DNA of 49,514 bases from Candidatus Zhuqueibacterota bacterium (GTDB lineage: Bacteria > Zhuqueibacterota > Zhuqueibacteria > Oceanimicrobiales > Oceanimicrobiaceae): the NCBI GenBank assembly GCA_029262055.1, contig JAJDAD010000058.1:1-49514 (forward strand). The letters are read 5' to 3'. The notes below the pieces were generated by a model, which worked only from the letters and a program-made list of their open reading frames with translations, ran no database searches and was not told the DNA's origin. Shown in pieces: positions 10,206 through 29,299 of the stretch; position 1 is the stretch's first letter; every line of letters begins with the position of its first letter. Made by a program: the position numbers and the translations under genes.

Positions 10206-10221
10206 ATTGCCCCTCTTTTTA

Positions 10222-11670: not shown

Positions 11671-12400
11671 AAAACAGCTTGGCTCTCAAGTAAAGATCCA
11701 CCGGAGGAAGGATGCCGTCATACACCTGCCGCATAAACGTCGCTACATTTGCAATGAGTGTTTTGGGGACATACACCACATCCTGCGGGCGCAAGTAAAG
11801 GTCGGCTTCTCTAATATCATCCACGCTCTTGGCTCTGATGGATTTTTTTAAATTGACTTTGATAGCTTTCACTTCTTCTCCGTACTCCCTGCGCAGAATC
11901 ATCACGTTGCCTAGTTTTGCCATATCAGTGGCTCCGCCCGCAGATGCCACGGCCTGCAGCAGCGTCATCTTCCTTTGAATTGGGTAGCCGCCGGGAGTCT
12001 CGACTTCGCCCAGGACATAAATCTGATTCCCGCTAAACTCGCGGACAATGATGGTGATTTCAGGCTCTTTGACAAATCTTGCGTAACGCTCTGTCACAAG
12101 GCTGTCCAGCCGTGACGGCGTCAGGCCGGCTGCCTGCACATCCCCTAGTCGCAGGAGACTAATTCGTCCATCCGGACGGACGGTCACCGTTTCATCGAAT
12201 TCGGAATTGATGAAGAACCGGAACTCGATGACGTCGCCCAGGCCAAGGCGGTATTCGGGCACCGGGGTCTGTCTGTGACCTGTGAACTCTGGTAAGCTCG
12301 CGGCCCGGGCGCGTGTGCTCACGCCGGATGAGACACAGCCGGCCATGGTTGCGATGGCTGCGAAAGCGGAGAGCAGGAGAAAAATTGGCGTTCTTTTCAT
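11660..12400 (-). CDS. Wza-family polysaccharide export lipoprotein (SLBB)
   Basis: A 246-residue outer-membrane export lipoprotein. The signal peptide ends in a lipobox MAGC with the lipidated cysteine at 22. A Poly_export domain follows (YRLGLGDVIEFRFFI, VRPDGRISLLRLGDV, VKEPEITIIVREF) and one SLBB domain (YVLGEVETPGGYPI, TLLQAVASAGGATD, DLYLRPQDVVYVPKT). It is shorter than E. coli Wza (~380 aa), with one clear SLBB repeat and a brief C-terminal helix region. It is the first gene of the operon, about 63 bases downstream of the predicted sigma54 start site. Confidence 0.92.
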   Translation of the reverse strand: MKRTPIFLLLSAFAAIATMAGCVSSGVSTRARAASLPEFTGHRQTPVPEYRLGLGDVIEFRFFINSEFDETVTVRPDGRISLLRLGDVQAAGLTPSRLDSLVTERYARFVKEPEITIIVREFSGNQIYVLGEVETPGGYPIQRKMTLLQAVASAGGATDMAKLGNVMILRREYGEEVKAIKVNLKKSIRAKSVDDIREADLYLRPQDVVYVPKTLIANVATFMRQVYDGILPPVDLYLRAKLFYDN

Positions 12401-13722: not shown

Positions 13723-14928
13723 TTACTTGCTGCGGGCAAACAGTTCCAGGCGGGAAGTCAAGCGCGGAAAGAACGGTGGGGTTTTGTCGATCAGCCGCGG
13801 GTCATGAATGTGACTAATGACATAACCCGTTGTGCCCGGCCCGGTACCGTACGGTTGAAAGTCGTTCTCCACCAACGAGCCGACGATTTGTAGCGTTCCC
13901 CAAGGTCCGCCGGTCGCGAAATTTGGAATGTTTATTTCATCATGATGGGCGATGATTGCTGCGTGAATTGTGACATCGGTGCTGTTGGGTACATTTTCCA
14001 CAATAGTTACTCGATGCCGGGCGACCAGGCCCAGGTAGTCGTTTGAAGCCGGATTGGCTATTGGATCACTTAGATAAACGATGTTGTCTTCAACTAAGAT
14101 GTCTCTGTCGCTCAATACCGTTATCCGACCGTTGAGCGTGCCCTCGACATGGATGTCTTTTGCAGTGCCCGGCTCCGTCAGAATGATCCCGTTGTAGGTG
14201 CCGATGGACTCGAACAAGGTTGTCACCCATGCGTCGGTCGAGTAGTCATAGGTTCCATCAGCCTTAAAACGCAACCAGAGCTCGTCGGTGAAACGATGGC
14301 CGCCGGCCATTCCTACGGCCGTCAGGGGCGCAAGGTCCGGCAATGGAATGGCTGGCGTGCCGAACTCAACCCCACCATAAAACCGCGGATCGTCGCCACC
14401 CAAAACGGCATGGAAATTGGCGTCCTGGGACGACAATTTTGAGAGGAACACGGGGTCACCCTTGATGCGAATGCGAGGGTTCGCATGGATCGGGCCGGTG
14501 AGCGTATCCCCCGTGTTATACGAGAGCGTATTAGGCCAAATGTTGTTCAGGAAAAAGGAATAGTAACTGTATGCAGGCTGGATGTAAGTTGTAACCGTCG
14601 TATCCGATACGTTGCCGAAATCGGTTATGACTTTCAGTTCTATTTTTCTAGCTTCGCTGCTGGAGTCGGCAGTGACATCGGTAACAACCACCGACCCATG
14701 CGCATCGGAGAAATCGATGCTGTTGATGCCCGCAACCCAGTTGATATCCTGATGGATTTTTGAAATTGCAACGTTGGTGATGCTCTCTGCTACATTGGTC
14801 CGAACCGTGTTCACATATTGCGCGATTATTTTTTCCCCCGAACCCAAAATGTGATCGGTTTGGTTCAGCATCATCGTCCCGAAGATCGATGCAAAACCGA
14901 CGACAATAATCAGCAAGCCTTTACCCAT
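13723..14928 (-). CDS. Large pilin-like envelope protein, paralogue A
   Basis: A 401-residue protein of unknown function. It begins MGKGLLIIVVGFASIFGTMML, a two-residue MG followed by one basic residue and a single hydrophobic helix, then a helix with NVAESITNVAISKI and a long beta-rich domain. It shares whole-length similarity with the protein at 15590-16777, for example YIQPAYS, GDTL...IH, KLSSQ/KISSK, FYGGVEFG/FYGSVEFG, DYLGL and PPFFPR. The middle resembles DUF4900/PilX-type pilus-associated proteins, which I recall only by general architecture. GGAG lies 5 bases before the ATG. Last gene of the pilus cluster. Likely a minor pilin or tip subunit; there is no canonical GFTLIE motif and no Glu5. 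Confidence 0.65.
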   Translation of the reverse strand: MGKGLLIIVVGFASIFGTMMLNQTDHILGSGEKIIAQYVNTVRTNVAESITNVAISKIHQDINWVAGINSIDFSDAHGSVVVTDVTADSSSEARKIELKVITDFGNVSDTTVTTYIQPAYSYYSFFLNNIWPNTLSYNTGDTLTGPIHANPRIRIKGDPVFLSKLSSQDANFHAVLGGDDPRFYGGVEFGTPAIPLPDLAPLTAVGMAGGHRFTDELWLRFKADGTYDYSTDAWVTTLFESIGTYNGIILTEPGTAKDIHVEGTLNGRITVLSDRDILVEDNIVYLSDPIANPASNDYLGLVARHRVTIVENVPNSTDVTIHAAIIAHHDEINIPNFATGGPWGTLQIVGSLVENDFQPYGTGPGTTGYVISHIHDPRLIDKTPPFFPRLTSRLELFARSK

Positions 14929-14942
14929 GTCTTCTCCGGTCC

Positions 14943-15515
14943 TTAGAAGTCGGTGAAAGTCTCACGATTGAGGTTCAGCGGAGTAATCAGTTTCTCCCAT
15001 ACCGCGACTGAGTACTCCTCGTCATAGGGTTCTTTGCTCTCCACCCTGAGGCTCACTTGCAGCATTCTTACATCCAGCAGGTCAGTAGTCACGACGCCCT
15101 GCTCATCGAGGATTTCAACCGTAAACTCTGCCACCCCGGCTTGCGATGCGATGGTGTTCACACTATTCACTTCGCGGTAGAGAATGACATCGTTTGGATT
15201 GGGGGTGGCCGAGGCAGCGCCGACCAGGCTGGTGTAATAGCGCACGGTGTCTGCGACGCCGTCTTCATTGACATCGCCAAGAAATGTAAGCTCGGTCGTA
15301 TCCAGAATCGCCTGCTGGCCTGGAGGCAGGGCTGTGCCGACCCGCCGCAGGTCATGGTCGATAATTTCCATAAACGAGGCAGCGGTTTCCTGCGTCAAAA
15401 GCTGAAACAGGTTTCGGTTGGAAAAGTCCACCACGCCGCCATGAAACCTTAAAATACCCAAAAGAAAAGTCCCGGCGATGACGATGCTGCCGATTAACTG
15501 AATGTGTGTGCTCAT
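14943..15515 (-). CDS. Small pilin-like protein (PilW-like) with calcium-loop motif
   Basis: A 190-residue protein with an N-terminal hydrophobic helix (IQLIGSIVIAGTFLLGILRF), a helical spine containing RNLFQLLTQETAASFMEIIDHDLRRVG, and a beta-rich C-terminus. That layout, and the phrase 'LRRVG' after the spine, resembles PilW-type minor pilins. The stretch DVNEDGVADTV has Asp/Asn at spacings 1, 3, 5 and 9, like a calcium-binding EF-hand or dockerin loop. It lacks a GFTLIE leader. It lies between the two large paralogues, 14 bases before the downstream one. Function as a minor pilin is inferred from fold pattern and context. Confidence 0.6.
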   Translation of the reverse strand: MSTHIQLIGSIVIAGTFLLGILRFHGGVVDFSNRNLFQLLTQETAASFMEIIDHDLRRVGTALPPGQQAILDTTELTFLGDVNEDGVADTVRYYTSLVGAASATPNPNDVILYREVNSVNTIASQAGVAEFTVEILDEQGVVTTDLLDVRMLQVSLRVESKEPYDEEYSVAVWEKLITPLNLNRETFTDF

Positions 15516-15522
15516 GATAGAT

Positions 15523-15534
15523 TAACCGCGGTTA
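15523..15534. repeat. 12-base perfect palindrome TAACCGCGGTTA
   Basis: This exact palindrome sits 8 bases upstream of the ATG of the small pilin-like gene, where a Shine-Dalgarno would be expected and none is seen. It could be an operator or could limit ribosome access. No known regulator is assigned. Confidence 0.4.
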
Positions 15535-15589
15535 CAACGTTGCATTCTTATGTATTTTTCCAGCCGTATAGTGCTCTGGGTGCGTAAAC

Positions 15590-16777
15590 CTAATCGCTGC
15601 GATAGATTTGCTCAATTCGACTCATTCTGGGAAACAGCGGCGGCGTCCGGTCGCACAGGCGTTCATCAAAGGTGCGGGTCGTTTCGTATCCCGAAATGAG
15701 GGTGCCCCCGCTGAACAAGCCGAATCTATCGGAGTCTTCCTGCACCACTGACCCGAAAAGGCCCAGTGTACCGCGCGGCACGCCATTGTTGTAGTTTTCT
15801 ACTTTCATCTTGTTACGGGCGATGATGGCTGCCTGGACCAGGACATCATTGGCGTTGGCAGCATTGTCAGCAATTATAACGTCATTAGGCGCGATCAGTC
15901 CGAGGTAGTCGGGTGAAGCCGGATTCACTTGTGGATCCGTGTTGTACAGGAGAGTGCCCTCGATAAAAATGTCGTTATCGCTGATGACGGTGACCTTTCC
16001 TGCAATGGTCCCTTTCACGTGGATGTCTGCGCCACTCGTCATGATAGTACCGTTGTAATCGGAGATCATGCTCGTCGTCAGGCTTGTACTGGTAGAACAT
16101 TGATAGGACCCGTCTACGTTAAATGTGAGCCAGAGCTCTTCGTTGTGAACGTCTCCGGCAACCGTGGCTGAATCCCGAAGTGCGGCCAGGTTGGGCTCAG
16201 GAATCCCCCCGTTACCAAACTCCACGCTACCATAAAACTTTGGCGCGGCGTTGCCAGCATCTGTATACGCATTTTTCTTAGAGCTTATCTTGTCGAGAAA
16301 CACCGGCGCCTCGGCGATTCTGATTTTTTGGTCGGAGTGGATTCTGTATGCCAATGTATCACCGGATTGATAGGTCATGTGTCCCGGCCACTTCCTTGAA
16401 TAGAAACCTAAGCTGGAATAGGCCGGTTGTATGTAGATCGCAACGGTGGTATCACTCTGGCCTGCATAGGTTGCGACCGCGGTTACTTGTACCTTTTTGG
16501 CCTCCACAGCTGAATCGGCTGTGATGGTCGTAATGCTCACGGAATAATTAGCTCCTGAAAACGACTGGTCTGTAAAGCCCGTGCCCCAGTTCAGGTTCTG
16601 GTAGACCTTTGAGACGGCCACGTTGGCCGCACTCTCCAGAACATTCCTCCGAATGATATCCTCGTAAACAAGGGCGATGCGGTTGGCGGACTCTTGAATC
16701 CTGCTGGATGTGGAAAACATAATTCCACTGAGCACCATTGAGAAGCCAACTACTACAATGAGTAGAGATTTTCCCAC
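15590..16777 (-). CDS. Large pilin-like envelope protein, paralogue B
   Basis: A 395-residue paralogue of the protein at 13723-14928, with the same layout: MGKSLLIVVVGFSMVLSGIMF, a helix NVLESAANVAVSKVYQ, a beta-rich domain with DTTVAIYIQPAYS, a central block KVTVISDNDIFIEG, and a C-terminal PPLFPR. The start is a GTG at 16777 with AGGA three bases upstream; the encoded MGK matches the ATG-initiated paralogue, which supports this start. Some 248 bases separate it from the preceding gene. Probably a minor or tip subunit of the pilus-like structure; no enzyme motif is visible. Confidence 0.65.
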   Translation of the reverse strand: MGKSLLIVVVGFSMVLSGIMFSTSSRIQESANRIALVYEDIIRRNVLESAANVAVSKVYQNLNWGTGFTDQSFSGANYSVSITTITADSAVEAKKVQVTAVATYAGQSDTTVAIYIQPAYSSLGFYSRKWPGHMTYQSGDTLAYRIHSDQKIRIAEAPVFLDKISSKKNAYTDAGNAAPKFYGSVEFGNGGIPEPNLAALRDSATVAGDVHNEELWLTFNVDGSYQCSTSTSLTTSMISDYNGTIMTSGADIHVKGTIAGKVTVISDNDIFIEGTLLYNTDPQVNPASPDYLGLIAPNDVIIADNAANANDVLVQAAIIARNKMKVENYNNGVPRGTLGLFGSVVQEDSDRFGLFSGGTLISGYETTRTFDERLCDRTPPLFPRMSRIEQIYRSD

Positions 16778-17025
16778 AGTTCCTCGTAGACGTTGTGTTC
16801 AAGAGCCGGTCAGCCAATATTCACTCCCTGATTATTGCTTGGTTGATTTCGCCGTCCTCTGCCAGGCCAAACCTGATAATGATAGCCGGCATGAAAAGCA
16901 ACGGACGACACCTTGAACCAGTTTGCAGTTTGCCCTCTTACAGCAGTCCACACGTTGTGGCTGCGGGGGGCAACTCTGCCTGACCCGGTTTCTTCCTTTG
17001 AAAAACTCCTAAAAGTTGAAAAGCC
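16778..17025. other. 248-base gap inside the pilus gene cluster
   Basis: No open frame with a plausible start is present on the minus strand. The sequence could carry a leader or internal promoter for the paralogue B gene. I do not see a clear promoter, terminator or recognised RNA element in it. Confidence 0.4.
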
Positions 17026-17520
17026 CTAGAAGTTTTTTTGATAAGCGAAAACATACTCGGATCTGACAGGAATCGCGAGTGCATCGCTGGTGACGGTAAC
17101 CGTCATTTTTTTATAGAACGTTTTCGTCGGGTTCACGACTGAGTCGAGGTTTGCTTCGCTGACGTAATTCACAGCAACATTAACTTGCATTTGACCAACC
17201 GGCGTGGCCTCGGTCAAAGTCAGACCATTGAAGTCATCAACATCGTCGAATGACGGGTAACTCTCGCTGACGCCATGTGTGAGCGGCGGCGTCCCAAAAG
17301 CGGCCGGCATACTGGCCGGCGTATTGGCAATCGTGGTTTCATCGAATGCTCTGGTTTTCCCTTCCTCGATGAACCGCTGGGCAAGATTGAGAGCGTACAA
17401 TTCGATCTGCTGGTTGATGGTTGCCTCGCTGTTGCCAAGAGTCAGGCGATTAATCGAGAGTGTCGTCAGGGAAAAGATGACGATGGCGCCAATTGTGAGA
17501 ATGAGTTCTCTGCTGCCCAA
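17026..17520 (-). CDS. Small pilin-like protein (PilV-like)
   Basis: A 164-residue protein starting MGSRELILTIGAIVIFSLTTLS, a hydrophobic helix that continues into an amphipathic spine (INQQIELYALNLAQRFIEEGK), then a beta-rich domain including MTVTVTSDALAIPVRSEYVF. This is the general design of PilV/minor pilins. The start codon is TTG at 17520, supported by AGAGGT 7 bases upstream and by the shared MG N-terminus of its relatives. It starts 5 bases after the secretin stop, so it is co-transcribed. A glutamate occurs at residue 5 of the precursor, which would be position 3 if the MG were removed. Confidence 0.6.
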   Translation of the reverse strand: MGSRELILTIGAIVIFSLTTLSINRLTLGNSEATINQQIELYALNLAQRFIEEGKTRAFDETTIANTPASMPAAFGTPPLTHGVSESYPSFDDVDDFNGLTLTEATPVGQMQVNVAVNYVSEANLDSVVNPTKTFYKKMTVTVTSDALAIPVRSEYVFAYQKNF

Positions 17521-17525
17521 TTGAT

Positions 17526-18737
17526 CTACCTCTTGCCCTGCAAACTGCCCGACCGCGGTCTACGCCTGGGTTTTGTGCTGAGTTGCTGGACTTTGCTTTT
17601 GAATTCGCGCCTTCTCTTCTCGATCAGGTTGACCGGACCGGTGCGCATGGTGAGTCTTTCGGCGATGGTCGGGATTATTGTCGCCTGCAGAATAATAACC
17701 AGCTCTTTTTTCGTCACAGAGGTCGAATTGTATCCAAAAAGATAGCGTAGACCAAAGAACCAGGGCGGAAGATCTTTGAGTAGCGGGATACCTCTGCGAC
17801 TGTGTGTTTTTTGATTTGAGAACAGCCCGGCTATGACGGTTTCTTCGCCGTTAACCAGGAGCACCTGCGTGAAGCTCTCTGTGATATTCTTGGTCACAGC
17901 CACCGGATCGGGTGTGACTGAGCTGCGTTCTGCCCGGATGTCCAGGTGGATAAACATGGAATCTGCCGGCCCCACTACCCGGGGCACAACAGTCAGGATA
18001 ATGCCGGATTCGTACTCAGTAAAGCGAGTGTTGCCGGCAAAATCCCGCGTGGTCAGGAAGAAGTTGGTCCCTACTTTTATTTTGCCCTGTTCCTGGTCCA
18101 TCACCTTGATAGACGGACTGGCCAGCAGCTCGCCCTTGTCAAGCGACTCAAATGTGCGTAGCAACGCAAAAATATCCCACGAGCGCGCTTTCTCCTTGAC
18201 GCTGATATTGAACAGGTCCCGGGTGACCTGGGATGCGAATTGGCCGTTGACGGTAACCCGGCCGTTGCGCACCAGCGACCAGTCGACACCGGCCTCTGCC
18301 AGGGTGGAGTAGTCGGCTTCAAAGAAGACGGCATTGATTTCTATTTCTCTGGTGTGGGTTGTGATAAGACCGGAGTCGCCACTGTTGCCCTGTTCGACCA
18401 GAGGAACGACTTCGTAGAAGCGCTCGCGCTCTTCGTATTTCAATAAATTGGAGCGCAACATGTACTCAAGCGCGTTTTTCCAGTACATGTTGTTGATCAT
18501 GACGTCGATCGGCGCGGCGAGATCTTCGGCGCCAATAATGATCTTGCCCTCATGCCGCAGGCTGAACTGGCTCAGTATTTCAATTGCAGTGTTGAGCGGG
18601 AGGCTCCTGTCAAGTGTCACCAGCTCATCCGGCCGGATGGAACGGGGTCTGGTTTCTTGAGCTGGCAAGAGTGCACCCTGCGACAGAACAATGCAGACTG
18701 CTATCAGGTATCTCCAGCCCCTGGCTTGGATTTTCAT
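17526..18737 (-). CDS. pilQ: Short PilQ/GspD-type secretin
   Basis: An outer-membrane secretin pore for the pilus-like fibre. From the ATG at 18737 the protein is 403 residues with a signal peptide ending near GALLPAQ. An STN-like N-domain follows (LPLNTAIEILSQFSL, NALEYMLRSN), then the secretin beta-barrel with ASPSIKVMDQEQGKI, LTVVPRVVG, GEETVIAGLFSNQ and the signature RRGIPLLKDLPPWFFG. The frame could begin 22 codons earlier (18803), but those residues precede an otherwise normal signal peptide. Typical PilQ proteins are 600-700 aa; AMIN and multiple N1 domains are absent here. The C-terminal tail is basic. Confidence 0.85.
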   Translation of the reverse strand: MKIQARGWRYLIAVCIVLSQGALLPAQETRPRSIRPDELVTLDRSLPLNTAIEILSQFSLRHEGKIIIGAEDLAAPIDVMINNMYWKNALEYMLRSNLLKYEERERFYEVVPLVEQGNSGDSGLITTHTREIEINAVFFEADYSTLAEAGVDWSLVRNGRVTVNGQFASQVTRDLFNISVKEKARSWDIFALLRTFESLDKGELLASPSIKVMDQEQGKIKVGTNFFLTTRDFAGNTRFTEYESGIILTVVPRVVGPADSMFIHLDIRAERSSVTPDPVAVTKNITESFTQVLLVNGEETVIAGLFSNQKTHSRRGIPLLKDLPPWFFGLRYLFGYNSTSVTKKELVIILQATIIPTIAERLTMRTGPVNLIEKRRREFKSKVQQLSTKPRRRPRSGSLQGKR

Positions 18738-18877
18738 ACGTATCTGATTCCTAATCATAATGACTGCAAGCATCAAACGGCGGAGGCGGCCGCCGGGCTG
18801 CAAAAAACTTCAATGTCGTCGAAAGAAAAAATCCTGATAAATACTGTCCGTAGTTTTACAGGGCCCCTTCGGTTGGT

Positions 18878-19771
18878 TCAATTTCGTCCGTCGATGGTTA
18901 GAATAACGCGTTCGGCACGTCCGCGTTTAGATATCATGAATTCTGCCTGATTTTTCTGTTGATTGATCGCCACCAGATTACCCAGGTAGACCCGGTCACC
19001 GACTCTAACTTGTTTCAACGGGCCGCCGGCTTCGGAGATGAAGACCGCATTGGGTGTAACTGCTTTGAGGGACGCCTTTGAGATGTCTATCTCGCCCGGC
19101 TTCTTCTTGGGCAGCGCATTGACCTCGCGTGTTTTGGATCGAGCGACTCTCTTGCCGGCGATCGCCCTGAAGATATCGCCCTGCCTCTTGTAGCCCAGGG
19201 CGACGCCGCCGGCGGATTCACTGAAATTTTCATCAACCGATGCCTGCCCTTTGACGCTGTAGCCTTCTAGCGTCATGGTAAAGCGGCGAAAGCCTTCCTC
19301 AGCGCCAACCCGCAAATTGAGCGACTGGATTTGATACAGGATGGGCTCGTACGTCAGATGCCAGATCAGGCGATTGATGTCGTCGTAACTGCCTTCTCCG
19401 GTAAGCGTGTAGGTAAACTTTATCACATTCTGCGACTCATTCTTTGAGTTCAGCACAAAGTCGTAGTAGATGTTCAATTTGTTAGCGGTCAGGATCCAGT
19501 TCAGATAAGCCAGAGTAAAGGAGGGCTCATCCGCCGAAATGATTCGTTTTGGGGCCTTTTGCCATTGTGAGTTCAAGGTGTCATGGGCAGTTTCGACCAC
19601 TGTCAGTCGCCCGATTTCCGTCCTGGACCTCTTGAGGGTTTCGCGTGTTTCGGCCTGTTCGCTCAGGGCGCCAAGCAGCCTATTGGCGTCTCTGAAGTAC
19701 CAAAATGAGCCTACCGAAAGGAAGATGATCCAGACGACGGCAAGGGTCAGGCTATTTCTGCGAGCAAACAC
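18878..19771 (-). CDS. PilO-PilP fusion, pilus inner-membrane alignment protein
   Basis: A 297-residue protein. One membrane helix (8-25) is followed by a short coiled coil and a ferredoxin-like PilO domain (about 85-173, with YLNWILTANKLNIYYDFV and FRRFTMTLEGYSV). Then come RQGDIFRAIAGKR (197-209), the place where PilP has its RDPF-type motif, and a beta domain (SKASLKAVTPNAVFISEAGG, VRVGDRVYLGNLVAIN) like the PilP C-terminus. PilO aligns the inner-membrane platform; PilP is a lipoprotein linking it to PilQ. Fusion removes the PilP lipid anchor. The start is GTG at 19771 with AAGGA 7 bases upstream. Order PilMN-PilOP-PilQ matches the canonical pilMNOPQ operon. Confidence 0.75.
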   Translation of the reverse strand: MFARRNSLTLAVVWIIFLSVGSFWYFRDANRLLGALSEQAETRETLKRSRTEIGRLTVVETAHDTLNSQWQKAPKRIISADEPSFTLAYLNWILTANKLNIYYDFVLNSKNESQNVIKFTYTLTGEGSYDDINRLIWHLTYEPILYQIQSLNLRVGAEEGFRRFTMTLEGYSVKGQASVDENFSESAGGVALGYKRQGDIFRAIAGKRVARSKTREVNALPKKKPGEIDISKASLKAVTPNAVFISEAGGPLKQVRVGDRVYLGNLVAINQQKNQAEFMISKRGRAERVILTIDGRN

Positions 19772-19796
19772 TGTATTGTCCTTTCATCAGCATTGG

Positions 19797-21422
19797 TTAT
19801 TCTTCGTCGGGCCTTGCTTTTCCGTTTAGAGAATCGATGGTGGAGAGCATGCCGGTGCCGTTGGTTTCCGTTCCATGGACTAACTCTTTTTCCATATGAA
19901 AGGTAAACGTACGGGTTCCCTGGAACTGGGATCTGGTCACTTTTTTCAGATTGGCGCTCCCTAACGCCGTTGCCAAAACCGGAATCCTCTCGCGCTTGCT
20001 TGCTGCACCTCTTATACTCACTTTTGTACCTGACTTGAGCAGTTCAGTTATCCAAATGTCGCCGGCGGCATTGATCTCTTTGTTTAGTTTTAAGAGAAAA
20101 AGTATGGTTTCATCATAGGAGCTGCTGAAGCTGTCAACTAACGCGACCTTGGTTTCGAGCTCAAAAATACGATCATCAAAGGAGCGCACCTGGGTGGTCA
20201 ATGCCTTGTTGTTGTCGAGCTGCTGTTTCATATTGGTCAAGTTGGCATTGACTTTCTTTATTTCCAGGTTCTTGGCGACCAGGGCCCAGGTAAAGGTAAA
20301 TGCCGTAAGGGCCACCAGCAGCAGCAGCGCATAACCATGACCGGCAAGTTTGGGCAGGGTCTGCTTGTCAAGGATGTACTCGGGTAGAAGGTTGTCCTTG
20401 GACTGATACGCAGGTTTCAGCAGTGCTTTCCAGGCCAGGGCTATGGGTACCGCATATCTCGAAAAAAGCAGCCCGCGGTCTTTGAAGCGCAAATCCGATT
20501 GAATCTTCTTGGAGTTCAGGTAGCCGGTGAGCGCTGAGGGGAATTTCTGCCGAAAGTAGTGCTTTGCTTTCAAGCGTGATGAGTGACCGGCGACCAGGAT
20601 CTTGTGTATTTCCGGGATATAGAAATGATCCTGAGCAAATATCATGCGGCTATAGATAACCTCGAGGACGTCATCAGACATGCTGCCTTTGTGCACGATG
20701 GGTGAGATGTGGTAGATCTCCGGGCCCTTCAAGAAGATAACGCGCGAGAAGTCCTGCTCAATATGGACAATGGCCGTAATCTCGTCCTTGTTGAATTTGT
20801 AGATTTCTTTCACCAAATCTATCAAGGCCAACTCGTTGGTGTCCATCAGAACCAGGTTGAGGTTGCTGGAGCGGAATTGGTTGACCTCCTCGATTAAATC
20901 GAGGATAGGAGGGTGGTATTCATAGTCGATCTTCAAGGTCTTCTTATCATGGATAGTGATAAGCCTTGTTTGACGCAGGTTCCCATCCTCGTCGCTACCC
21001 CACAAATCGAGACGATCCTTCAGACGCTTCTTGTTTTTCCGGTCCGCAGCGGTCTGATCTGCGTCCAGGTAATCATACTTCACGGTCAGGTGCGGAGAGT
21101 TGACGGCGACATTCGCTTTCGTCACCTGAAATTTGTCGATAATTGCGTAGAGCTTACTGACGTTGTTGCTTTGCGTTACGCTTCCCGAAAGGTCGTCCTG
21201 GGTCTCTTCTTTTAAGTCCGGTTCTTGAATATCAAAGGCATTCTCCAGATCATTTAGCGAAGCCGGAAGGGCCTTCTCCTCGACCTGGGTTCGCTCCAGT
21301 GGCTCATCCAAAGTAGCTGACTCCAACGCCTTGATATGTGCCTTGCCCCGAACCAGGCTGAGAAATGCAGCCCTGACTTCGTTGCCGTTGATCGTTATTC
21401 CTATCGCGTACTTTATTGCCAT
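19797..21422 (-). CDS. PilM-PilN fusion, pilus platform protein
   Basis: A 541-residue protein. Residues 1-340 have an actin-like PilM/FtsA design: YAIGITINGNEVRAAFL at the start, IVHIEQDFSRVIFLKG as second phosphate region, and ILVAGHSSRL as adenosine motif. At 344-351 comes NLLPEYIL, the hallmark start of PilN (INLLP), then a membrane helix (363-384), a coiled coil, and a ferredoxin-like domain ending with a polar tail. In canonical systems the cytoplasmic PilM binds the short N-terminal INLLP peptide of PilN; here the two are joined just before that peptide. About 45 acidic residues (40-85) interrupt the PilM domain near its start. Starts 2 bases after the pilT stop. Confidence 0.8.
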   Translation of the reverse strand: MAIKYAIGITINGNEVRAAFLSLVRGKAHIKALESATLDEPLERTQVEEKALPASLNDLENAFDIQEPDLKEETQDDLSGSVTQSNNVSKLYAIIDKFQVTKANVAVNSPHLTVKYDYLDADQTAADRKNKKRLKDRLDLWGSDEDGNLRQTRLITIHDKKTLKIDYEYHPPILDLIEEVNQFRSSNLNLVLMDTNELALIDLVKEIYKFNKDEITAIVHIEQDFSRVIFLKGPEIYHISPIVHKGSMSDDVLEVIYSRMIFAQDHFYIPEIHKILVAGHSSRLKAKHYFRQKFPSALTGYLNSKKIQSDLRFKDRGLLFSRYAVPIALAWKALLKPAYQSKDNLLPEYILDKQTLPKLAGHGYALLLLVALTAFTFTWALVAKNLEIKKVNANLTNMKQQLDNNKALTTQVRSFDDRIFELETKVALVDSFSSSYDETILFLLKLNKEINAAGDIWITELLKSGTKVSIRGAASKRERIPVLATALGSANLKKVTRSQFQGTRTFTFHMEKELVHGTETNGTGMLSTIDSLNGKARPDEE

Positions 21423-21424
21423 CG

Positions 21425-22720
21425 TTAGTAGTCGTGTTTAACCAATTCTTCGAATCGTCTCTTGTTGTTGGCGTTGATGTAGGCCTCGAAATAGCTGATC
21501 TTGTTATCTGAATACAGCCTAGCAAGATCCTGCTCGAGCGTGATCATGCCTTTGTCACTCGATTGATGCACTATCTGGTAGATTTCTCCCAAATTGTTGT
21601 TTCTGATGGCCGCCTGGATGGCCGGAGTGGTGACCATCACTTCTTTTGCCAAGATGCGTTGACCATTCTCACTGGGAACGAGTTTTTGTGAGATTACACA
21701 ACTCAAAACGTCGGCAAGCCTGGTGCGGACGCGGTCTTGCTCATCAGCCGGCACCTCTCCGAGGATCCGATCGATACTCTCAATTGCGGAAGAAGTATGC
21801 AAAGTAGAAAAAACCTTGTGGCCGCTGTCGACAACTTCCAGCACGGTCAGCATGGTTTCCGCGTTCCTCATTTCACCAATCATGATGATATCCGGATCCT
21901 GGCGCAAGGCCTGAATGGTACCCTCTTTAAATGAAGCTACGTCCCGGCCGATTTCCCGGTGCTTGACGATTGACTTGATAGGCTTGTGCACGTATTCGAT
22001 GGGGTCGGCGATGATTACGATATGCGCCTCCATCGTGCGATTGTTTGCATCGATGATCGAGTCGAGTGTGGTGCTCTTGCCCGAGCCCGTGATTCCGGTC
22101 ACCAGGATGAGCCCTGATTTTTGATATTTCAAACTCAGTGTTTTCGCAACCTCCTTATGCAGGCCAAGCTTGGAAAAACTGATGACACGGTCATTTACCC
22201 TGCGCATATTCAGTGCCAGGTGATTGAGGTCGAAATAGACTGTTGCCCTGAAGCGAGTCCAGATTTCGCCTTGTTCGTCGTAAACCCGGTAAGAAAAATC
22301 GACATACTTGTGCTTGAGCAAATGCTGTCTGTCAGACACGGTCAGCAAATTGAAAATCAGCAAGTCGGTTTTGTCTACGCTGTAATTTCCCAAATCCCTA
22401 TCCTGCTGCTTGACCCCATGAGTCCTGAACCAGATGCGCTCCTGACACCCGGGGCCACCGAGGTCCAGGTCAGAGGCCTGGAGTTGTTTCATTCTGAGTA
22501 GCAGCGTGTCGAACGACTTCTTGAGCGCGATCTGGACCTCTTCCCCGTTGTCTTCCAGGATATCAGCCACAACTTCCCACCTGTCAGGGACGCTGGAATG
22601 TTGCTGCAACTGCTCCGCCATTCTCTGCAATGGGCTGTTAGCTCCCAATAGGGCAGCGCTATCTGCCCGACTGCGGTCCGCTCTTTGCGGTGTGATGTTG
22701 TTTTGTTGGGACTCGATCAT
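21425..22720 (-). CDS. pilT: PilT/PilU-family retraction ATPase
   Basis: A hexameric motor that depolymerises pilin. Motifs: Walker A GITGSGKSTT, Asp box IIADPIEYVH, Walker B IIMIGEMRNAET, His box VFSTLHTSSA, and the PilT-type C-terminus AIQAAIRNNNLGEIYQIV and GMITLEQDLARLY. The usual Asp-box glutamate (IEDPIEFVH) is alanine here. An unusual ~100-residue N-terminal region rich in Gln precedes the ATPase. The ATG at 22720, 7 bases after the PilB stop, is preferred to an in-frame TTG at 22738. Retraction implies twitching-like motility or DNA uptake, by family knowledge. Confidence 0.88.
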   Translation of the reverse strand: MIESQQNNITPQRADRSRADSAALLGANSPLQRMAEQLQQHSSVPDRWEVVADILEDNGEEVQIALKKSFDTLLLRMKQLQASDLDLGGPGCQERIWFRTHGVKQQDRDLGNYSVDKTDLLIFNLLTVSDRQHLLKHKYVDFSYRVYDEQGEIWTRFRATVYFDLNHLALNMRRVNDRVISFSKLGLHKEVAKTLSLKYQKSGLILVTGITGSGKSTTLDSIIDANNRTMEAHIVIIADPIEYVHKPIKSIVKHREIGRDVASFKEGTIQALRQDPDIIMIGEMRNAETMLTVLEVVDSGHKVFSTLHTSSAIESIDRILGEVPADEQDRVRTRLADVLSCVISQKLVPSENGQRILAKEVMVTTPAIQAAIRNNNLGEIYQIVHQSSDKGMITLEQDLARLYSDNKISYFEAYINANNKRRFEELVKHDY

Positions 22721-22727
22721 TTGCTCA

Positions 22728-24560
22728 CTAAGTATCAACAGTCACACTGATGATTTCACTGATCGTGGTCAGGCCTTGCTTGATTCGCTCTATACCTGAC
22801 TGTCGCAGGGAAAGCATTTTATTCTCAATTGCCAGGTCGCGAAGGGCCTCCTCATTGACTTCTTCGCGCGATTTCAGGATTTCATTTCTGATCTCGCGGT
22901 TGAATAAAAGGGCTTCGGTAATGGCAATCCGGCCCCGATAGCCATCAAAACAATCGTCACAGCCAACGGGTTTATAAAAGGTAGTATTGGCGATTTCGTC
23001 CCGGCCAAAGTCCAGGCGCAGGAGATGGTTAGGATCCGGTTCGGTGTTGGGGATCTTGCACTTTTCACAGAGTTTGCGCACCAGCCGCTGCGCCATCACC
23101 AGGTTGATTGCATTTGCGATTAGGAATGGCTCTACACCCAGCATATAGAGCCGGGCCACGGCACTGACCGCATCGTTGGTGTGGAGTGTCGAGAATGTCA
23201 GGTGCCCGGTATTCGACAAAGAGATTGCGATTTCGGCCGACTTAAGGTCACGGATTTCGCCGACCATCACAATGTCCGGATCGTGTCGCAGGATCGAGCG
23301 CAGGGCGCCGTCGAAGTTAAGCTTCGGGTTTAACTTGACCTGGCGCGCTCCCGAAATCAAGTACTCGACCGGCTCTTCCACTGTCAGGACATTCTTGCTG
23401 GGATCCATCACGTGGCTCAGGGCAGCTACCAGAGTCGTGCTTTTGCCGCTGCCCGTTGGTCCGGTCAAAATGACCATACCCTGCGGTTGCTCGATTGCCC
23501 TGGTGAAGTCAGCCAGAGCCTGGTCCTGCAATCCGATCTTGTTCAAGTCCGTTATGACCTTGCGATCATCTAAAATACGAATAACCACGCTTTCAAAACG
23601 ACGGTCGAATTCGACGCCGACGATCGGGATGACGGAGACCCTGAAACGAATGTAGCAGTTGTCCACTTTCCTTTGAATGTAACCGTCCTGCGCCATGGCC
23701 CGATCAAATCGGTCGATGTTGACAGAGCGGTCCTTTACAACCGCGATGAGGGCTTCGGGTTTGATTTCAGATTGTGTATACCAATGGATCAGCTTGCCGT
23801 CGATCCGAAAGAAGATCTCTGTAGCATTTCCGTCCTTGGGGATGAGGTGGATGTCACTGGCTTCCCGTCGCACCGCTTCAACCAGCATACCTTCAATCAG
23901 GTTGACCAGTCGGCTCTTGTTAATCTCGGCATCGAGAGCATCCTCGTCGACATTTCGGCTATCATCCTCGAAAACTTCGATCTCATCGGCTTCATCGAAT
24001 ATCTTTTGCAGAAATTCGTTGTTTGAATAGAAGGTTTCATGGATCAGTTTTTCGATTTCTTCCAGCGGTGCGTAAGCGAGGTCAATATCGGCAACGTCCA
24101 GTCTGCCGGCGGCAGCGTGCAGGTGCTCATTGGTGGGATCGCTTGTTATCAAGACGAGGACATTGCGTTTGTAGTCATGCCATTTGAAGGGGACTACCTT
24201 ATTCGCAAGCAGGGCGTTTGAGATATCCTCGGGCATGCCGTAAACCAGTTCTTTGATAAACTCGATACGTTCCCTGCTGATGCTGGTCGGAGACAAATCG
24301 ACAGTCGGGAACCCGTACAGTTTGGACATTTCAACGAAAATGTCATGGCGCTCCACACCGAGGTCGTCGATCAGAATGTCTATGAGTTTGCGCTTGGACT
24401 TGCGCGGCTCCCGGCTTTGAATGTCGGAAGCGCGCTGGAGTGTCTCCTCAGTGACGATGCCGGTACTGACAAGTCTCTGCGAGAGGCGGCCCAGTCCGCT
24501 GGCCAGCGGCGTCAGGGTAATCTCGGATGTGATCGTTGGGTTATCTTTTTCTGTGGCCAT
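22728..24560 (-). CDS. pilB: PilB/GspE-family assembly ATPase
   Basis: A 610-residue extension motor. An MshEN-like N-domain (about 25-180) is followed by the ATPase with Walker A GPTGSGKSTT (367-376), Asp box VEEPVEY (394-400; usually VEDPVEY), Walker B DIVMVGEIRD (429-438) and His box FSTLHTNDA. The zinc-binding tetracysteine is complete: CEKC (498-501) and CDDC (534-537). ATG at 24560; the preceding PilC stop is 3 bases away, so coupling is likely. Length is typical for PilB. Confidence 0.92.
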   Translation of the reverse strand: MATEKDNPTITSEITLTPLASGLGRLSQRLVSTGIVTEETLQRASDIQSREPRKSKRKLIDILIDDLGVERHDIFVEMSKLYGFPTVDLSPTSISRERIEFIKELVYGMPEDISNALLANKVVPFKWHDYKRNVLVLITSDPTNEHLHAAAGRLDVADIDLAYAPLEEIEKLIHETFYSNNEFLQKIFDEADEIEVFEDDSRNVDEDALDAEINKSRLVNLIEGMLVEAVRREASDIHLIPKDGNATEIFFRIDGKLIHWYTQSEIKPEALIAVVKDRSVNIDRFDRAMAQDGYIQRKVDNCYIRFRVSVIPIVGVEFDRRFESVVIRILDDRKVITDLNKIGLQDQALADFTRAIEQPQGMVILTGPTGSGKSTTLVAALSHVMDPSKNVLTVEEPVEYLISGARQVKLNPKLNFDGALRSILRHDPDIVMVGEIRDLKSAEIAISLSNTGHLTFSTLHTNDAVSAVARLYMLGVEPFLIANAINLVMAQRLVRKLCEKCKIPNTEPDPNHLLRLDFGRDEIANTTFYKPVGCDDCFDGYRGRIAITEALLFNREIRNEILKSREEVNEEALRDLAIENKMLSLRQSGIERIKQGLTTISEIISVTVDT

Positions 24561-24563
24561 AGG

Positions 24564-25907
24564 TTACTTCGAGAGGGGTGATGGTGGTGAAACGAATCCC
24601 AGTTCCGAGGAAATTAAGGTCAACCCAACAATCATCAGAGTAGCAACAATTGAGATAGTCAGGTTGATTATATCTACTAGTCTGCTCATTTTATGCTTGT
24701 TTTCTTTCTCATAGTAGTTTGCCAACTGCAGGGCTGTCTCACGCAGAGTGCCGGACTCTTCGCCGGCTTTCAATCGTCGCACTGCAGTCAGAGTGAAGCA
24801 GTTGGCACGGCTCAGGCATTCTACGAAACTCTTGCCCTCCCGCAGCATTGCCGGAACGACCATGCTGGTGACCTGCTTTTCGATGTACGCGTTTCTGCAT
24901 GACTCCGCGGCAATCCGGATCGCGGTAATATTTTCCCCCGAGGAGCTGTAGAGTCCATTAAAAACTCTGGCAAAAATCTCTATGCTGGTCTTATGCAGGA
25001 CCGGGCCCAGCACCGGCAGTCGCAACAGATTCCTGTCGATGATGTAGCGACCTCTCTCGGTTTTGCTCCACTGCCAGAAAGCCACAACAGGAATCGTGAA
25101 AGCAAGCGAAAGAACGAGCCAGTTGGAAGCCAGGAAGTCGCTAAGGTTCAAGGTCGCCTGAGTCATTGGCGGAATTTCAATGTTGTGTTTGGCGAGCATG
25201 GTGGTCATCTTTGGAAAGATGTACATGATGTAGAATCCCACGGCTGAAAATAGTGCAAAAAAAACAACCATTGGCATCAGCAGTACGGACCGCAGATTGT
25301 TTTTGAATTCCTCTTCACGCTCAAGGAACTTGGCAGTGCTATCATAGATTGCCGCCATGTTGCCGCTGGTCGATGCAACAGACAGCATGTGGGCTGTAAA
25401 TCTTCCAAATACGTCTTCATGCTTGGCGTAAACCGTTTTTCCTTCGCTGCCTGATTTTAAGTCCTTTTGGATGTCTGAAATTGTCTCGCGCAGGCGCCGG
25501 TTTTCCGTGTCGCTGCGCACCAGCGTCAAAATTTCGTCGTAGGAGAATTTTTCTTTTAGCAAGTCCGCGCAGATGCGCACAAACAGAACCAGGTCTTTGA
25601 CCGGTACTTTAAACTTAATATCGATAAGCTTCCTGCGCACATAGTAGACTTTGTACCCCATCTTGATGAGGGCTTTACGCAGCTCCTCCTGCGAGAAAGC
25701 CCGTTGTTCACCCTGGATCGGCGCCTCGGAAGACTTAGACACTTTGTAGAGGAATACCTGCTTTTTCTCGATCGTGTCAATCCGGACCCCTTTCGTCTTG
25801 ACGACCTGTTGCAGTTTGCTCTTTACAGCCTTGTTGTCCAGACTATAGATGACTCCCTGGATGGGTTTCCCGGTGATGTTGACTCCGGTGTAGCGGTATT
25901 CTGGCAC
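24564..25907 (-). CDS. pilC: PilC/GspF-family platform protein
   Basis: An inner-membrane platform on which PilB and PilT act. The 447-residue protein has two T2SSF domains with helices at VVFFALFSAVGFYIMYIF, WLVLSLAFTIPVVAFW and TISIVATLMIVGLTLI. Diagnostic phrases include VRICADLLKEKFSYDEIL, FGRFTAHMLSVASTSGNM and LKAGEESGTLRETALQLANYYE. The N-terminal ~110 residues (two-part, VPEYRYTGVNITGKPIQG) are longer than usual. Start is a GTG at 25907 with CGGA 7 bases upstream. It follows the pilin candidate across a large stem-loop. Confidence 0.92.
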   Translation of the reverse strand: MPEYRYTGVNITGKPIQGVIYSLDNKAVKSKLQQVVKTKGVRIDTIEKKQVFLYKVSKSSEAPIQGEQRAFSQEELRKALIKMGYKVYYVRRKLIDIKFKVPVKDLVLFVRICADLLKEKFSYDEILTLVRSDTENRRLRETISDIQKDLKSGSEGKTVYAKHEDVFGRFTAHMLSVASTSGNMAAIYDSTAKFLEREEEFKNNLRSVLLMPMVVFFALFSAVGFYIMYIFPKMTTMLAKHNIEIPPMTQATLNLSDFLASNWLVLSLAFTIPVVAFWQWSKTERGRYIIDRNLLRLPVLGPVLHKTSIEIFARVFNGLYSSSGENITAIRIAAESCRNAYIEKQVTSMVVPAMLREGKSFVECLSRANCFTLTAVRRLKAGEESGTLRETALQLANYYEKENKHKMSRLVDIINLTISIVATLMIVGLTLISSELGFVSPPSPLSK

Positions 25908-25934
25908 AGGTTATTCCGGTTTTCTTATAAGTAC

Positions 25935-25998
25935 AGAGGCCGTTCCAGAAGCTCGCCATTACAAACCAGACGAGAAACAGGCTTCCGAAACGGCCTCT
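25935..25998 (-). promoter_or_regulatory. 18-bp stem-loop between pilin and pilC
   Basis: The arms 25935-25952 and 25981-25998 pair over 18 positions (16 Watson-Crick and 2 G-U in the minus-strand RNA) around a 28-base loop. The outer 10 bp (AGAGGCCGTT / AACGGCCTCT) are perfect. It starts about 20 bases after the pilin stop. No U-tract follows, so it looks like a 3'-end stabiliser or processing site that lets pilin mRNA accumulate above the machinery mRNA, not a standard intrinsic terminator. Confidence 0.7.
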
Positions 25999-26018
25999 AA
26001 TGTGCACTATGGATAGAA

Positions 26019-26405
26019 CTAGTTACTTATAGCCAAGGCGTTTACGGAACTGTCTGTAATCGAAGCGGTGACTACAGCACCTTCAACTCCAGTACCTGTA
26101 ATGGTAAAGTTCCCGGCAGCTGGTGCAGACACGGCATATGTACCGTTCTCGTTTGTAGCCGGAAAGTTCAGGAAAGTTTCAAGGTTTGCACTCGTCATTG
26201 TGGCGAAGGTGCGTCCTCCACCACCCATGACTGCTGGCTTTCGATACCATTCCTGGGCACGCGAGCCTATCGTCATCACGTCCTGGACGACCGCATCCTG
26301 GTTTGCTGTTTGCGCCCCTTGCCCAAACATATTGATCCCAACCACAATCGACACGCCAACAATGATGGTGCTCAGTACGATGAGTAAAAGTTGTTGTTGA
26401 CCCAT
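26019..26405 (-). CDS. Candidate major pilin, non-canonical leader
   Basis: A 128-residue protein starting MGQQQLLLIVLSTIIVGVSI, a hydrophobic helix continuing into GINMFGQGAQTANQDAVVQDVMTIGSRAQEWY, the amphipathic spine expected of a type IV pilin, and then a small Gly/Thr/Ser-rich beta domain. It is the first gene of the pilus operon and small enough to be the major subunit. It lacks the lysine-rich leader and GFTLIE motif. If cleavage occurs after Gly2 the mature protein begins QQQLL, with leucine instead of the conserved Glu5. The ribosome site AGGAGTGA lies 6 bases before the ATG and is the strongest in the cluster, fitting high expression. A stable stem-loop follows the gene. Confidence 0.75.
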   Translation of the reverse strand: MGQQQLLLIVLSTIIVGVSIVVGINMFGQGAQTANQDAVVQDVMTIGSRAQEWYRKPAVMGGGGRTFATMTSANLETFLNFPATNENGTYAVSAPAAGNFTITGTGVEGAVVTASITDSSVNALAISN

Positions 26406-26814: not shown

Positions 26815-29289
26815 TCACGCCGAATCTCGCGATTGTGCGATCTGGTAATTGAAGTTCGAGAATAATGTACGTTCAAAGTTCTTCTTTAGCAGAGTAACTA
26901 TATGCTCAGAAGTCTGAAATCTTTGCTCCGGCTCCTTTTCAAGGCATTTTAGAATCAAGGCGTTGAAAAAACTAGGCACCTCGCTGCTAATACTTGACGG
27001 GGGTTCCGGCTTCTTTTTCAGGATTGTATCTGCCACGCTGCCATAATCACGGTCGACAAATGGATGTGCTTGGGTGACAGCCTCGTACATGATCAAACCC
27101 ATGGCAAAAATGTCACTTCTGGCGTCACCCGGGTGACCGTGAATCTGTTCGGGAGCAGCATAGAAAAAATCCTGGTCCAGTCGCGGGGCGTGGCTGCCAA
27201 AAATCAAAGAGGCCGGGATCTGGAAATCCATGATTCTGGTCTCATCTTTTTCTCCTACCAGAATATTGCTGGGTTTCAGGTTGTGGTGGCAGATGCCAAC
27301 GCGATGAATGTAATGCAGTCCTTTGAAGATACGATAGATGATTTTTACAAAGCGCTCCAGACTGAAGTTGTTGCGGAAAACGTCTGTGAGACTTGTGCCT
27401 TCGATAAACTCTCGTGCGATAAACGTGAGACCATGGTCTTCATCGACATCATATATTTTTGCAATATTCGGATGGCTGAATTGACTGGGCGTTCTGGCGA
27501 TGCGGTAAAACTCTGTTTTCTGCGGACTCGAAGCCGGTAGCGAATTGAAGACTTCGGACTGAACGATTTTCAGGATAACAAACCGTTGCAGGTCGGCATC
27601 TTTAGCTTTGTAGACTTTGATGGCCGCATTGCCGCCTATTTCTGTCAACAGCTCAAACCGTCCCAATTGCGTCACATAACCGAACCGCAGCTCGTTGACC
27701 GGATTGCGCCAGGATACTTCGTGGAGACTCTGCGGCTCGCTTAGGTACTTCAGCCTGAATTTACCGAGAGAATGCACTTTGAAGCGATTCGCACTTTTGA
27801 CTTCGCGATAGGCGCGTGGACTGAGGAATATCCGGTCAGCCTTACGCAGAACTTTGCCGTACATGGCGTGATCTTCTTTGCTCAAATCGCTTTCGCCAAC
27901 CGTAGCCAGTTTAGTAGCCGTCAAAAAGTCGTTCAACGTTTGCGTTGAATGCAGATTTTCCAGATTGTTGCTATGGTGGACTCCCATTGCCAGGTGAATC
28001 TTCTCGGTATTGTCGTTGAGGGCGTTGTAGTAATTGACCTTGTTAAGGACGTCCGTACAAAACGACACTGCCTTAACGATGTCGGCACACAGTACGATAA
28101 GTCCGTTGGAAAGAGTCCAGATATCGCGATATTCGTATTGTTCGAGAAAGTCTTTGAGGATTAGCCAAAACTTGTGCCGGGCGTCGGTCTCCGGGCGTGG
28201 CTCAGTGGCTTCTTGCGGCCCGTTGGCATCGCACAGTTCGATAGTAATAATTATTTCGGACCCTTGCGGAACCTGCCTCTGCTCGCGTTCGCCGGCGGAG
28301 GCGAACAGGGCGGAGCCCTCCTTTTTGAAGTCGTCGAACGTGATAGACGAGCGCGGGGATTCGGGTCCCGCCATGAAGTCTGTCTTAGGCGACATTCTGG
28401 TCAGGATCTCCCGGCTCAAATCAAAGCCGGAAAGAGCAGGCCTCCGACCCAGTCGTTGCGCTTCGGTTTCGACAGCGGCTGGCTGGTACGCATGGACCTG
28501 TTGCTGCTCTGCCTCAATCTGCTCTGCCGGGCCCCACAGGGCCGGGTCCAGCACGAAGCTTTTGAGCTCAAGATAGAATCCCAGATCGCGCAGTTTTTCG
28601 AAATGAGTTATCCTCTGCAGATACTCAATCGCCATCTGCTTGTCGATATAGCTAAACCGGATCGGCTCCTTGCTACCCGCACTCCGGAATCGTTTCTCCA
28701 GGTAGGTGGCACAGAGTTTTTCCAAAAGTAACGTGTCGTTTTCGGTGGTATCGATTAGGCGCTTCAAAAGGTTGATCGCTGCCTGAAACTCACCAAGCTG
28801 CCAACAGGCGCTGAGAAAATGATTGAGCGCCTTGAGTTGGAAACCGTTTTTCGTCAGTAGAGCTTCACAAATACTCTTGCACTTCTGATGCTCACCCTTG
28901 GCGTCGTAGTGCTCCATCAGGAAGCTGGTGATTTTTTCATAAAACGGGACGTCGAAATTCAAGGTGGCTTCGTAGATTTGAATTGCTTCCCGATCTTCCC
29001 GTTTTTCTGCCAGAAAGGCGCCGGCCAGAATGCCGCATAGATTCTCGTCGTTTGGATCAAGCTCGACCGCCTTTTGGTACACTGCCAGCGCCTCGGGACC
29101 GAAGTTCTTCAGGCCGATGAGCGCCTTACTCAATTTTAGGTAGACTTGTTTACCCGCCGCATTGAATTCGAGCAGCTGGTTGAACCTCTTTGCAGCTTCC
29201 GCGTACAGGCCCTTTTCCAGATAGGCATCGCCCAGCGCCATGATCATGACCAGCAGATCACGGTTTTGGCGGGGATCGATGTTTGTCAT
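26815..29289 (-). CDS. TPR / degenerate nucleotide-cyclase domain / Ser-Thr pseudokinase protein
   Basis: An 824-residue soluble protein from the ATG at 29289 (GGGGG 4 bases upstream; an in-frame TTG at 29307 is less likely). Residues ~1-250 are TPR repeats (ALGDAYLEKGLYAEAAKRF, AVYQKAVELDPNDENL). A region at ~340-525 resembles a class III cyclase fold (IIITIELCDANG; NGLIVLCADIVKAVSFC; LHLAMGV-type beta strand) but the second metal-binding aspartate site is Asn. The C-terminal kinase fold keeps ILK lysine and APEQ, but its catalytic loop reads HHNLKPSN instead of HRDLKPSN and DFG is DFQ, and the glycine loop is irregular. So phosphotransfer is unlikely; it probably works as a scaffold or regulated switch. 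Last gene of the signalling group. Confidence 0.8.
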   Translation of the reverse strand: MTNIDPRQNRDLLVMIMALGDAYLEKGLYAEAAKRFNQLLEFNAAGKQVYLKLSKALIGLKNFGPEALAVYQKAVELDPNDENLCGILAGAFLAEKREDREAIQIYEATLNFDVPFYEKITSFLMEHYDAKGEHQKCKSICEALLTKNGFQLKALNHFLSACWQLGEFQAAINLLKRLIDTTENDTLLLEKLCATYLEKRFRSAGSKEPIRFSYIDKQMAIEYLQRITHFEKLRDLGFYLELKSFVLDPALWGPAEQIEAEQQQVHAYQPAAVETEAQRLGRRPALSGFDLSREILTRMSPKTDFMAGPESPRSSITFDDFKKEGSALFASAGEREQRQVPQGSEIIITIELCDANGPQEATEPRPETDARHKFWLILKDFLEQYEYRDIWTLSNGLIVLCADIVKAVSFCTDVLNKVNYYNALNDNTEKIHLAMGVHHSNNLENLHSTQTLNDFLTATKLATVGESDLSKEDHAMYGKVLRKADRIFLSPRAYREVKSANRFKVHSLGKFRLKYLSEPQSLHEVSWRNPVNELRFGYVTQLGRFELLTEIGGNAAIKVYKAKDADLQRFVILKIVQSEVFNSLPASSPQKTEFYRIARTPSQFSHPNIAKIYDVDEDHGLTFIAREFIEGTSLTDVFRNNFSLERFVKIIYRIFKGLHYIHRVGICHHNLKPSNILVGEKDETRIMDFQIPASLIFGSHAPRLDQDFFYAAPEQIHGHPGDARSDIFAMGLIMYEAVTQAHPFVDRDYGSVADTILKKKPEPPSSISSEVPSFFNALILKCLEKEPEQRFQTSEHIVTLLKKNFERTLFSNFNYQIAQSRDSA

Positions 29290-29299
29290 ATAACCCCCA

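Follow-up and report, generated by a model that had tools for sequence, protein, structure and literature searches.

The pilus gene cluster described here is best explained as encoding a retractable type IV pilus of leaderless pilins that would be made at mature length and assembled without the prepilin peptidase PilD, a reading that we consider likely. The cleavage of prepilins by an A24 aspartic peptidase is held to define type IV filaments and to be universal among them, and the detection of pilins in genomes relies on the leader motif. Since the pilins of the present cluster begin at or near the trimmed position and several of its carriers have no detectable peptidase, this processing step appears to have been dispensed with. 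In the textbook route, a basic leader sets the topology of the prepilin, after which PilD cuts behind the glycine at position −1, often adding a methyl group to the N-terminus so exposed. The glutamate at position 5 (Glu5) pairs with the neighboring subunit's N-terminus (PMC10191384, PMC4471445). The role of the N-methylation has been called a mystery (PMC10191384).

The window (the whole stretch of 49,514 nucleotides that was analyzed) belongs to a genome of 5.7 Mb that is 97% complete and consists of 114 contigs. From position 26405 down to 13723, its minus strand carries an unbroken pilus cluster in the order pilA-C-B-T-MN-O-Q-V-X-W-X (Table 1). The five pilin-like reading frames, which had been picked out in the first-pass annotation by N-termini starting with MG and a hydrophobic stretch or with MSTHIQL, are indeed present there, as is the complete pilus machine in which they were said to lie, i.e., the secretin and the PilO-like, PilM/N-like, PilT, PilB, and PilC proteins; the proposal that the five proteins are the substrates of this machine is supported. 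The cluster combines the PilB-type ATPase and PilC/GspF platform of type IV filaments with two features of the type IVa pilus, namely a PilT-type retraction ATPase (recognized by a pilT_fam match slightly below the bit cut-off) and a secretin for passage through the outer membrane. The PilT-like ATPase suggests that the fiber would be retracted.

Table 1. Genes of the pilus cluster in the window
Feature	Position	Strand	Start codon and evidence
PilA-like major pilin candidate, MGQQQLLLIVLSTIIVG..., 128 aa, leaderless	26019..26405	-	ATG, 2 open codons upstream; pilin fold predicted
PilC/GspF-like platform protein	24564..25907	-	T2SSF 3e-29; tree
PilB assembly ATPase	22728..24560	-	type_IV_pilB 430 bits and GspE 403 bits, both below cut-off; tree
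PilT-like retraction ATPase	21425..22738	-	pilT_fam 314.7 bits (cut-off 319.1), E 7.5e-94
PilM-PilN-like/GspL-like protein, 541 aa	19797..21422	-	PilN part weak (E 0.011, below cut-off); position conserved
PilO-like inner-membrane protein	18878..19771	-	assigned from position and conservation; no Pfam family above cut-off
Secretin, short, PilQ/GspD-like	17526..18803	-	Secretin 93.5 bits, E 1.4e-26, above cut-off
PilV-like minor pilin, MGSRELILTIGAI..., leaderless	17026..17520	-	TTG
PilX-like minor pilin 2, MGKSLLIVVVGF..., leaderless	15590..16777	-	GTG
PilW/GspJ-like minor pilin, MSTHIQLIGSIVI..., leaderless, without Gly2	14943..15515	-	ATG; structure matches
PilX-like minor pilin 1, MGKGLLIIVVGF..., leaderless	13723..14928	-	ATG; 45% identity to 15590

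Directly upstream of pilA, genes for a TPR and Ser/Thr kinase protein, a TPR protein, and a PP2C phosphatase are located on the minus strand (26815-31071). Because these genes adjoin pilA here and kinase-TPR genes also adjoin the pilus cluster in the loci L053-L055, the pilus may be under phospho-signalling control. Another group of minus-strand genes (8490-12400) resembles the XrtA/PEP-CTERM set of exopolysaccharide export and chain-length genes and includes an ExeA-like ATPase fused to a tyrosine-kinase-like domain.

None of the five pilins carries a class III signal peptide, defined as a hydrophilic leader, about 6-26 residues long, whose last residue is glycine or alanine (PMC4471445, PMC10191384), and none of them matches the N_methyl family (PF07963). 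Their N-termini read MGQQQLLLIV (26019), MGSRELILTI (17026), MGKSLLIVVV (15590), MSTHIQLIGS (14943), and MGKGLLIIVV (13723). Upstream of the start codons, the frames stay open for 11 (13723), 2 (14943), 7 (15590), 13 (17026), and 2 codons (26019) before a stop is reached, and no ATG, GTG, or TTG occurs in them. As the upstream frames are short and free of start codons, a leader is not recoverable for any of the five genes, and a leader hidden behind another start codon or frame was ruled out, which bears out the earlier statement that both a basic leader and a GFTLIE site are missing. An in-frame upstream start is likewise lacking in most relatives (115/122 PilA, 48/51 PilV, 40/48 PilW, and 41/49 PilX). 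What is common to all four pilin families is the short N-terminus and not a glycine at position 2 (Gly2).

Predicted folds and profile searches identify the five leaderless proteins as true type IV pilins. The PilA-like protein was modeled with 20 sequences (pLDDT 83) as one helix spanning residues 2-55, after which come a short helix and four strands, and structure comparison matched this model to N. meningitidis PilV (Z 10.1), T. thermophilus PilA4 (Z 10.0), P. aeruginosa PilE (Z 9.4), and the PAK pilin (Z 8.4), the best non-pilin rows reaching Z values of about 4.5. A PDB sequence search with the PilA profile gave weak matches, pilins among them. The PilW-like model (pLDDT 86), compared by VIA-align, matched TTHA1219 (Z 11.3), XcpW (Z 10.4), and EpsJ (Z 10.1), with GspJ also found in the range of Z 8-11 and the next unrelated row at Z 5.0; a Foldseek search with the same model returned no useful match. 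Both models show the long N-terminal helix and antiparallel sheet of the type IV pilin fold, and their matches to solved pilins and pseudopilins, at Z 8-11, stand well clear of the unrelated rows. The PilX-like pair (13723 and 15590) aligns over the full length with leader-bearing pilins of separate canonical clusters (hhalign E 7.9e-75). In these paralogues the leader ends in ...QRG↓LSL, and the one on contig C30 of the window's genome reads MGNLLDNQRG↓LSLVMAV. The first-pass annotation had named homologues with standard leaders, or an upstream start restoring one, as findings that would speak against its claim; such homologues do exist, but they are paralogues that belong to distinct, canonical clusters, and none of the genes has an upstream start that would give back a leader. 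The first residues of the leaderless models lie within about 1-3 positions of mature residue 1 in solved pilins, and residue 2 of the PilA-like model superposes on mature residue 1 of T. thermophilus PilA4. As the match of the helices shows, the leaderless proteins start at the mature start or at most about three residues from it.

Two further observations concern relatives of these proteins. Longer proteins with a TonB-like N-terminus (a membrane helix and a proline-rich part) and a PilX-like C-terminal domain were found in L028, L029, L030, L031, and the window's genome (G000:C2:84757-85725); this family is encoded away from the pilus cluster. Moreover, the window's genome contains a second PilA-like copy at a contig end (G000:C34:130-477), which is interrupted by one internal TAG and one TAA and is possibly a pseudogene.

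Of 270 distinct pilin-like relatives, 193 have Gly2, as compared with 2 of 255 machine proteins of the same loci, an enrichment beyond chance, the PilA part of this count being biased because one scan looked for GQQQLLL. It is conserved in the PilA-like (115/122) and PilX-like (39/49) families but not in the PilV-like (26/51) and PilW-like (13/48) families. These numbers bear on the explanation that the proteins are prepilins whose leader consists of two residues (Met-Gly) and is cut off after Gly2 by a host or divergent prepilin peptidase. The conservation of Gly2 in the PilA-like and PilX-like families, the canonical requirement for a glycine at position −1 (PMC4471445), and the two peptidases encoded by the window's genome are in line with such cleavage, but Gly2 is missing in 25 PilV-like and 35 PilW-like relatives, which excludes it as a general, conserved cleavage site. 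Furthermore, known leaders comprise 6-26 residues and are required for efficient processing (PMC4471445), the two peptidases of the window's genome adjoin canonical pilins, and an A24 peptidase is absent from ten near-complete genomes and one chromosome-level record discussed below. Cleavage after Gly2 is therefore unlikely, with room for it in the PilA-like and PilX-like families only, where Gly2 is strongly conserved. Of the two alternatives that had been put forward, a cut after Gly2 by an altered PilD is disfavored because most PilW-like and half of the PilV-like proteins lack Gly2 and because of these peptidase-free genomes, and insertion of unprocessed pilins is favored.

The region around Glu5 differs between the families as well. 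In nearly all PilA-like relatives, residues 3-5 are QQQ; Gln occupies position 5 in 120/122 and is followed by hydrophobic residues at positions 6-7, so that Glu5 is absent from the major pilin irrespective of whether counting begins at Met1, residue 2, or residue 3. The lack of Glu5 that had been noted is not uniform, however, as residue 5 of the PilV-like proteins (counted from Met) is Glu in 26/51 and Gln in 13/51, together 39/51. Asp is found at residue 6 of 20/48 PilW-like proteins. The absence of Glu5 from the PilX-like pair is unremarkable because it is missing from ordinary tip pilins as well, and also from the homologues of this pair that do bear a leader, and the notion that its loss is odd in all five pilins was dropped for these two proteins.

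No prepilin peptidase gene is present within the window, as had been noted, and the genome-wide search for pilD that had been recommended found two A24 peptidases elsewhere, on contigs C45 and C30, each beside canonical GFTLIE-type pilins with their own PilB and PilC. Altogether, canonical pilins are encoded on four other contigs of this genome, of which three also encode a PilB and a PilC and two a peptidase of their own. One may hence consider that the leaderless proteins are membrane-anchored accessory proteins and that the fiber is formed by the canonical pilins of other loci. This is very improbable given that most of these contigs are equipped as just described, that the leaderless system is kept in genomes without any canonical pilin, and that the PilA-like protein is predicted to fold as a pilin and stands first in the operon, where up to three copies are found.

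Many carriers of the leaderless system do have a peptidase, as the window's genome does. Leaderless PilA was detected in 26 class genomes that are at least 90% complete, and 10 of these 26 (G018, G022, G027, G028, G039, G044, G055, G056, G057, and G062) gave no A24 match. These ten genomes also contain no N_methyl pilins and no match above the cut-off to the second peptidase domain (PF06750), which was readily found in the positive controls G000 (1e-32) and G007 (1e-35). A chromosome record of Balneolaceae ih13 (CP051242.1, 3.75 Mb) has the leaderless system and yielded no match to PF01478 at E 0.1, none to PF06750 at E 1, and none to N_methyl. With the ten genomes being 90-100% complete, the additional record at chromosome level, and the positive controls for PF06750, it was ruled out that their peptidase was missed through poor sampling. 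Neither an above-cut-off peptidase nor canonical pilins were found in 24 of 50 genomes reached via named loci (completeness not given), a few of which also belong to the class set. Among class genomes at least 90% complete, all 16 with N_methyl pilins have a peptidase (Fisher p 0.0006), and no association exists between leaderless PilA and peptidase (Fisher p 0.19). The N-termini of PilA are alike in genomes with and without peptidase.

Processing by an unrelated, novel peptidase encoded elsewhere in the genome would be compatible with these family searches, which cover known families. It is, however, a quite improbable solution, slightly more so than a cut after Gly2: all genes of the cluster are known pilus parts and no extra conserved membrane enzyme is among them, the four pilin families share no cleavage motif, and hardly anything is left to be removed.

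The same leaderless pilins, accompanied by the same machine genes, were found again in KSB1, Marinimicrobia, Ignavibacteria, Kryptonia, Calditrichota, and Balneolaceae, in the order pilA-C-B-V-W-X-T-MN-O-Q or close variants; the genomes are mostly metagenome assemblies, mostly of uncultured bacteria. The PilA profile matches 33 of 82 genomes of the phylum and none outside the class, and the PilX-like query matches 39 of 63 class genomes, leader-bearing paralogues included. A scan of named genomes, which searched for GQQQLLL and hence favors that PilA motif, returned 317 places, 80 of which were retained, in KSB1, Neomarinimicrobiota, Kryptonia, Ignavibacteria, Calditrichota, Balneolaceae, and others. 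In the trees of PilB and PilC, the leaderless clusters form one group apart from the canonical rows (support 100/100 each), which shows their separateness and not their exact origin because the canonical rows are few (five, three from the window's genome and two from E. coli) and the branches long. The conserved set across phyla and the separate PilB/PilC group agree with the initial suggestion of a distinct class.

Some loci of the scan deserve separate mention. On the Balneolaceae chromosome (L111), no minor pilin was recognized in the stretch between pilB and pilT, the place of minor pilins elsewhere, which encodes a protein of 171 aa (L111:14092-14607). In a Kryptonia strain, PilB is split into two adjacent open reading frames (L130:11887-13674) by a frameshift or sequencing error. 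As PilC is almost identical in L141 and L144, the one locus labeled Deltaproteobacteria and the one labeled Bacteroidetes, some outlying taxa are probably binning errors.

Among known systems, the type IVa pilus (PilA, PilB, PilC, PilT, PilMNO, PilQ) shares with the cluster the machine set with PilT-like ATPase and secretin, the pilin fold of the major subunit, and the PilV/W/X-type minor pilins, whereas here no pilin has a class III leader, the major pilin lacks Glu5, a dedicated prepilin peptidase is missing, and the ATPases score below the type IVa cut-offs. The type II secretion pseudopilus (GspGHIJK) is similar in that the PilW-like model resembles GspJ (XcpW, EpsJ), the PilX-like proteins occupy the GspK/PilX place, and the fused PilMN-type protein is GspL-like; the cluster differs from it in its PilT-like ATPase and in the absence of leaders and of a GspO peptidase. 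The canonical clusters of the window's genome (C30, C45, and C74) have homologous PilB and PilC proteins, and C30 also the PilX-like homologue, but their pilins have basic leaders and G↓(F/L)TL(I/V)E sites, and C30 and C45 have their own peptidase. MSHA pilus loci likewise contain no prepilin peptidase gene (PMC6668835); in contrast to the present case, where the cluster occurs in genomes without a detectable peptidase, MSHA pilins are prepilins that are thought to borrow the peptidase of another system.

The start codon of the leaderless pilins coincides with the position at which a processed ordinary pilin begins, or lies no more than about three residues away from it. The Sec/SRP route would place the protein in the membrane as an N-in/C-out signal anchor with almost no cytoplasmic part, a condition to which ordinary prepilins are brought only by the cut of PilD. 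Because it would already be inserted in this post-cleavage state, it could enter the PilB/PilC-driven fiber without prepilin peptidase or N-methylation. In proteins with Gly, Ala, or Ser at position 2, methionine aminopeptidase would probably take off the initial Met. Possible docking substitutes for Glu5 are the polar QQQ in the major pilin, Glu or Gln at residue 5 in the PilV-like proteins, and Asp at residue 6 in many PilW-like proteins.

A survey from 2014 listed a single phylum, Nanoarchaeota, in which pilins occur although no prepilin peptidase could be detected (PMC4471445), and leaderless pilins may have escaped a survey from 2019 because it searched with major-pilin profiles (PMC6668835). 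In the open-licence literature, no report of leaderless pilins or of a peptidase-less pilus system was found. We regard it as likely that a widespread branch of type IV pili gave up prepilin processing and makes all of its pilins at mature length, that whole organisms assemble type IV pili with neither the peptidase nor N-methylation, and that a Gln-rich N-terminus has taken the place of the Glu5 salt bridge. If true, the leader and its peptidase would be dispensable, the branch would offer a natural experiment on the roles of leader, N-methylation, and Glu5, and leader-based tools would miss pili in many members of the Fibrobacterota-Chlorobi-Bacteroidota group.
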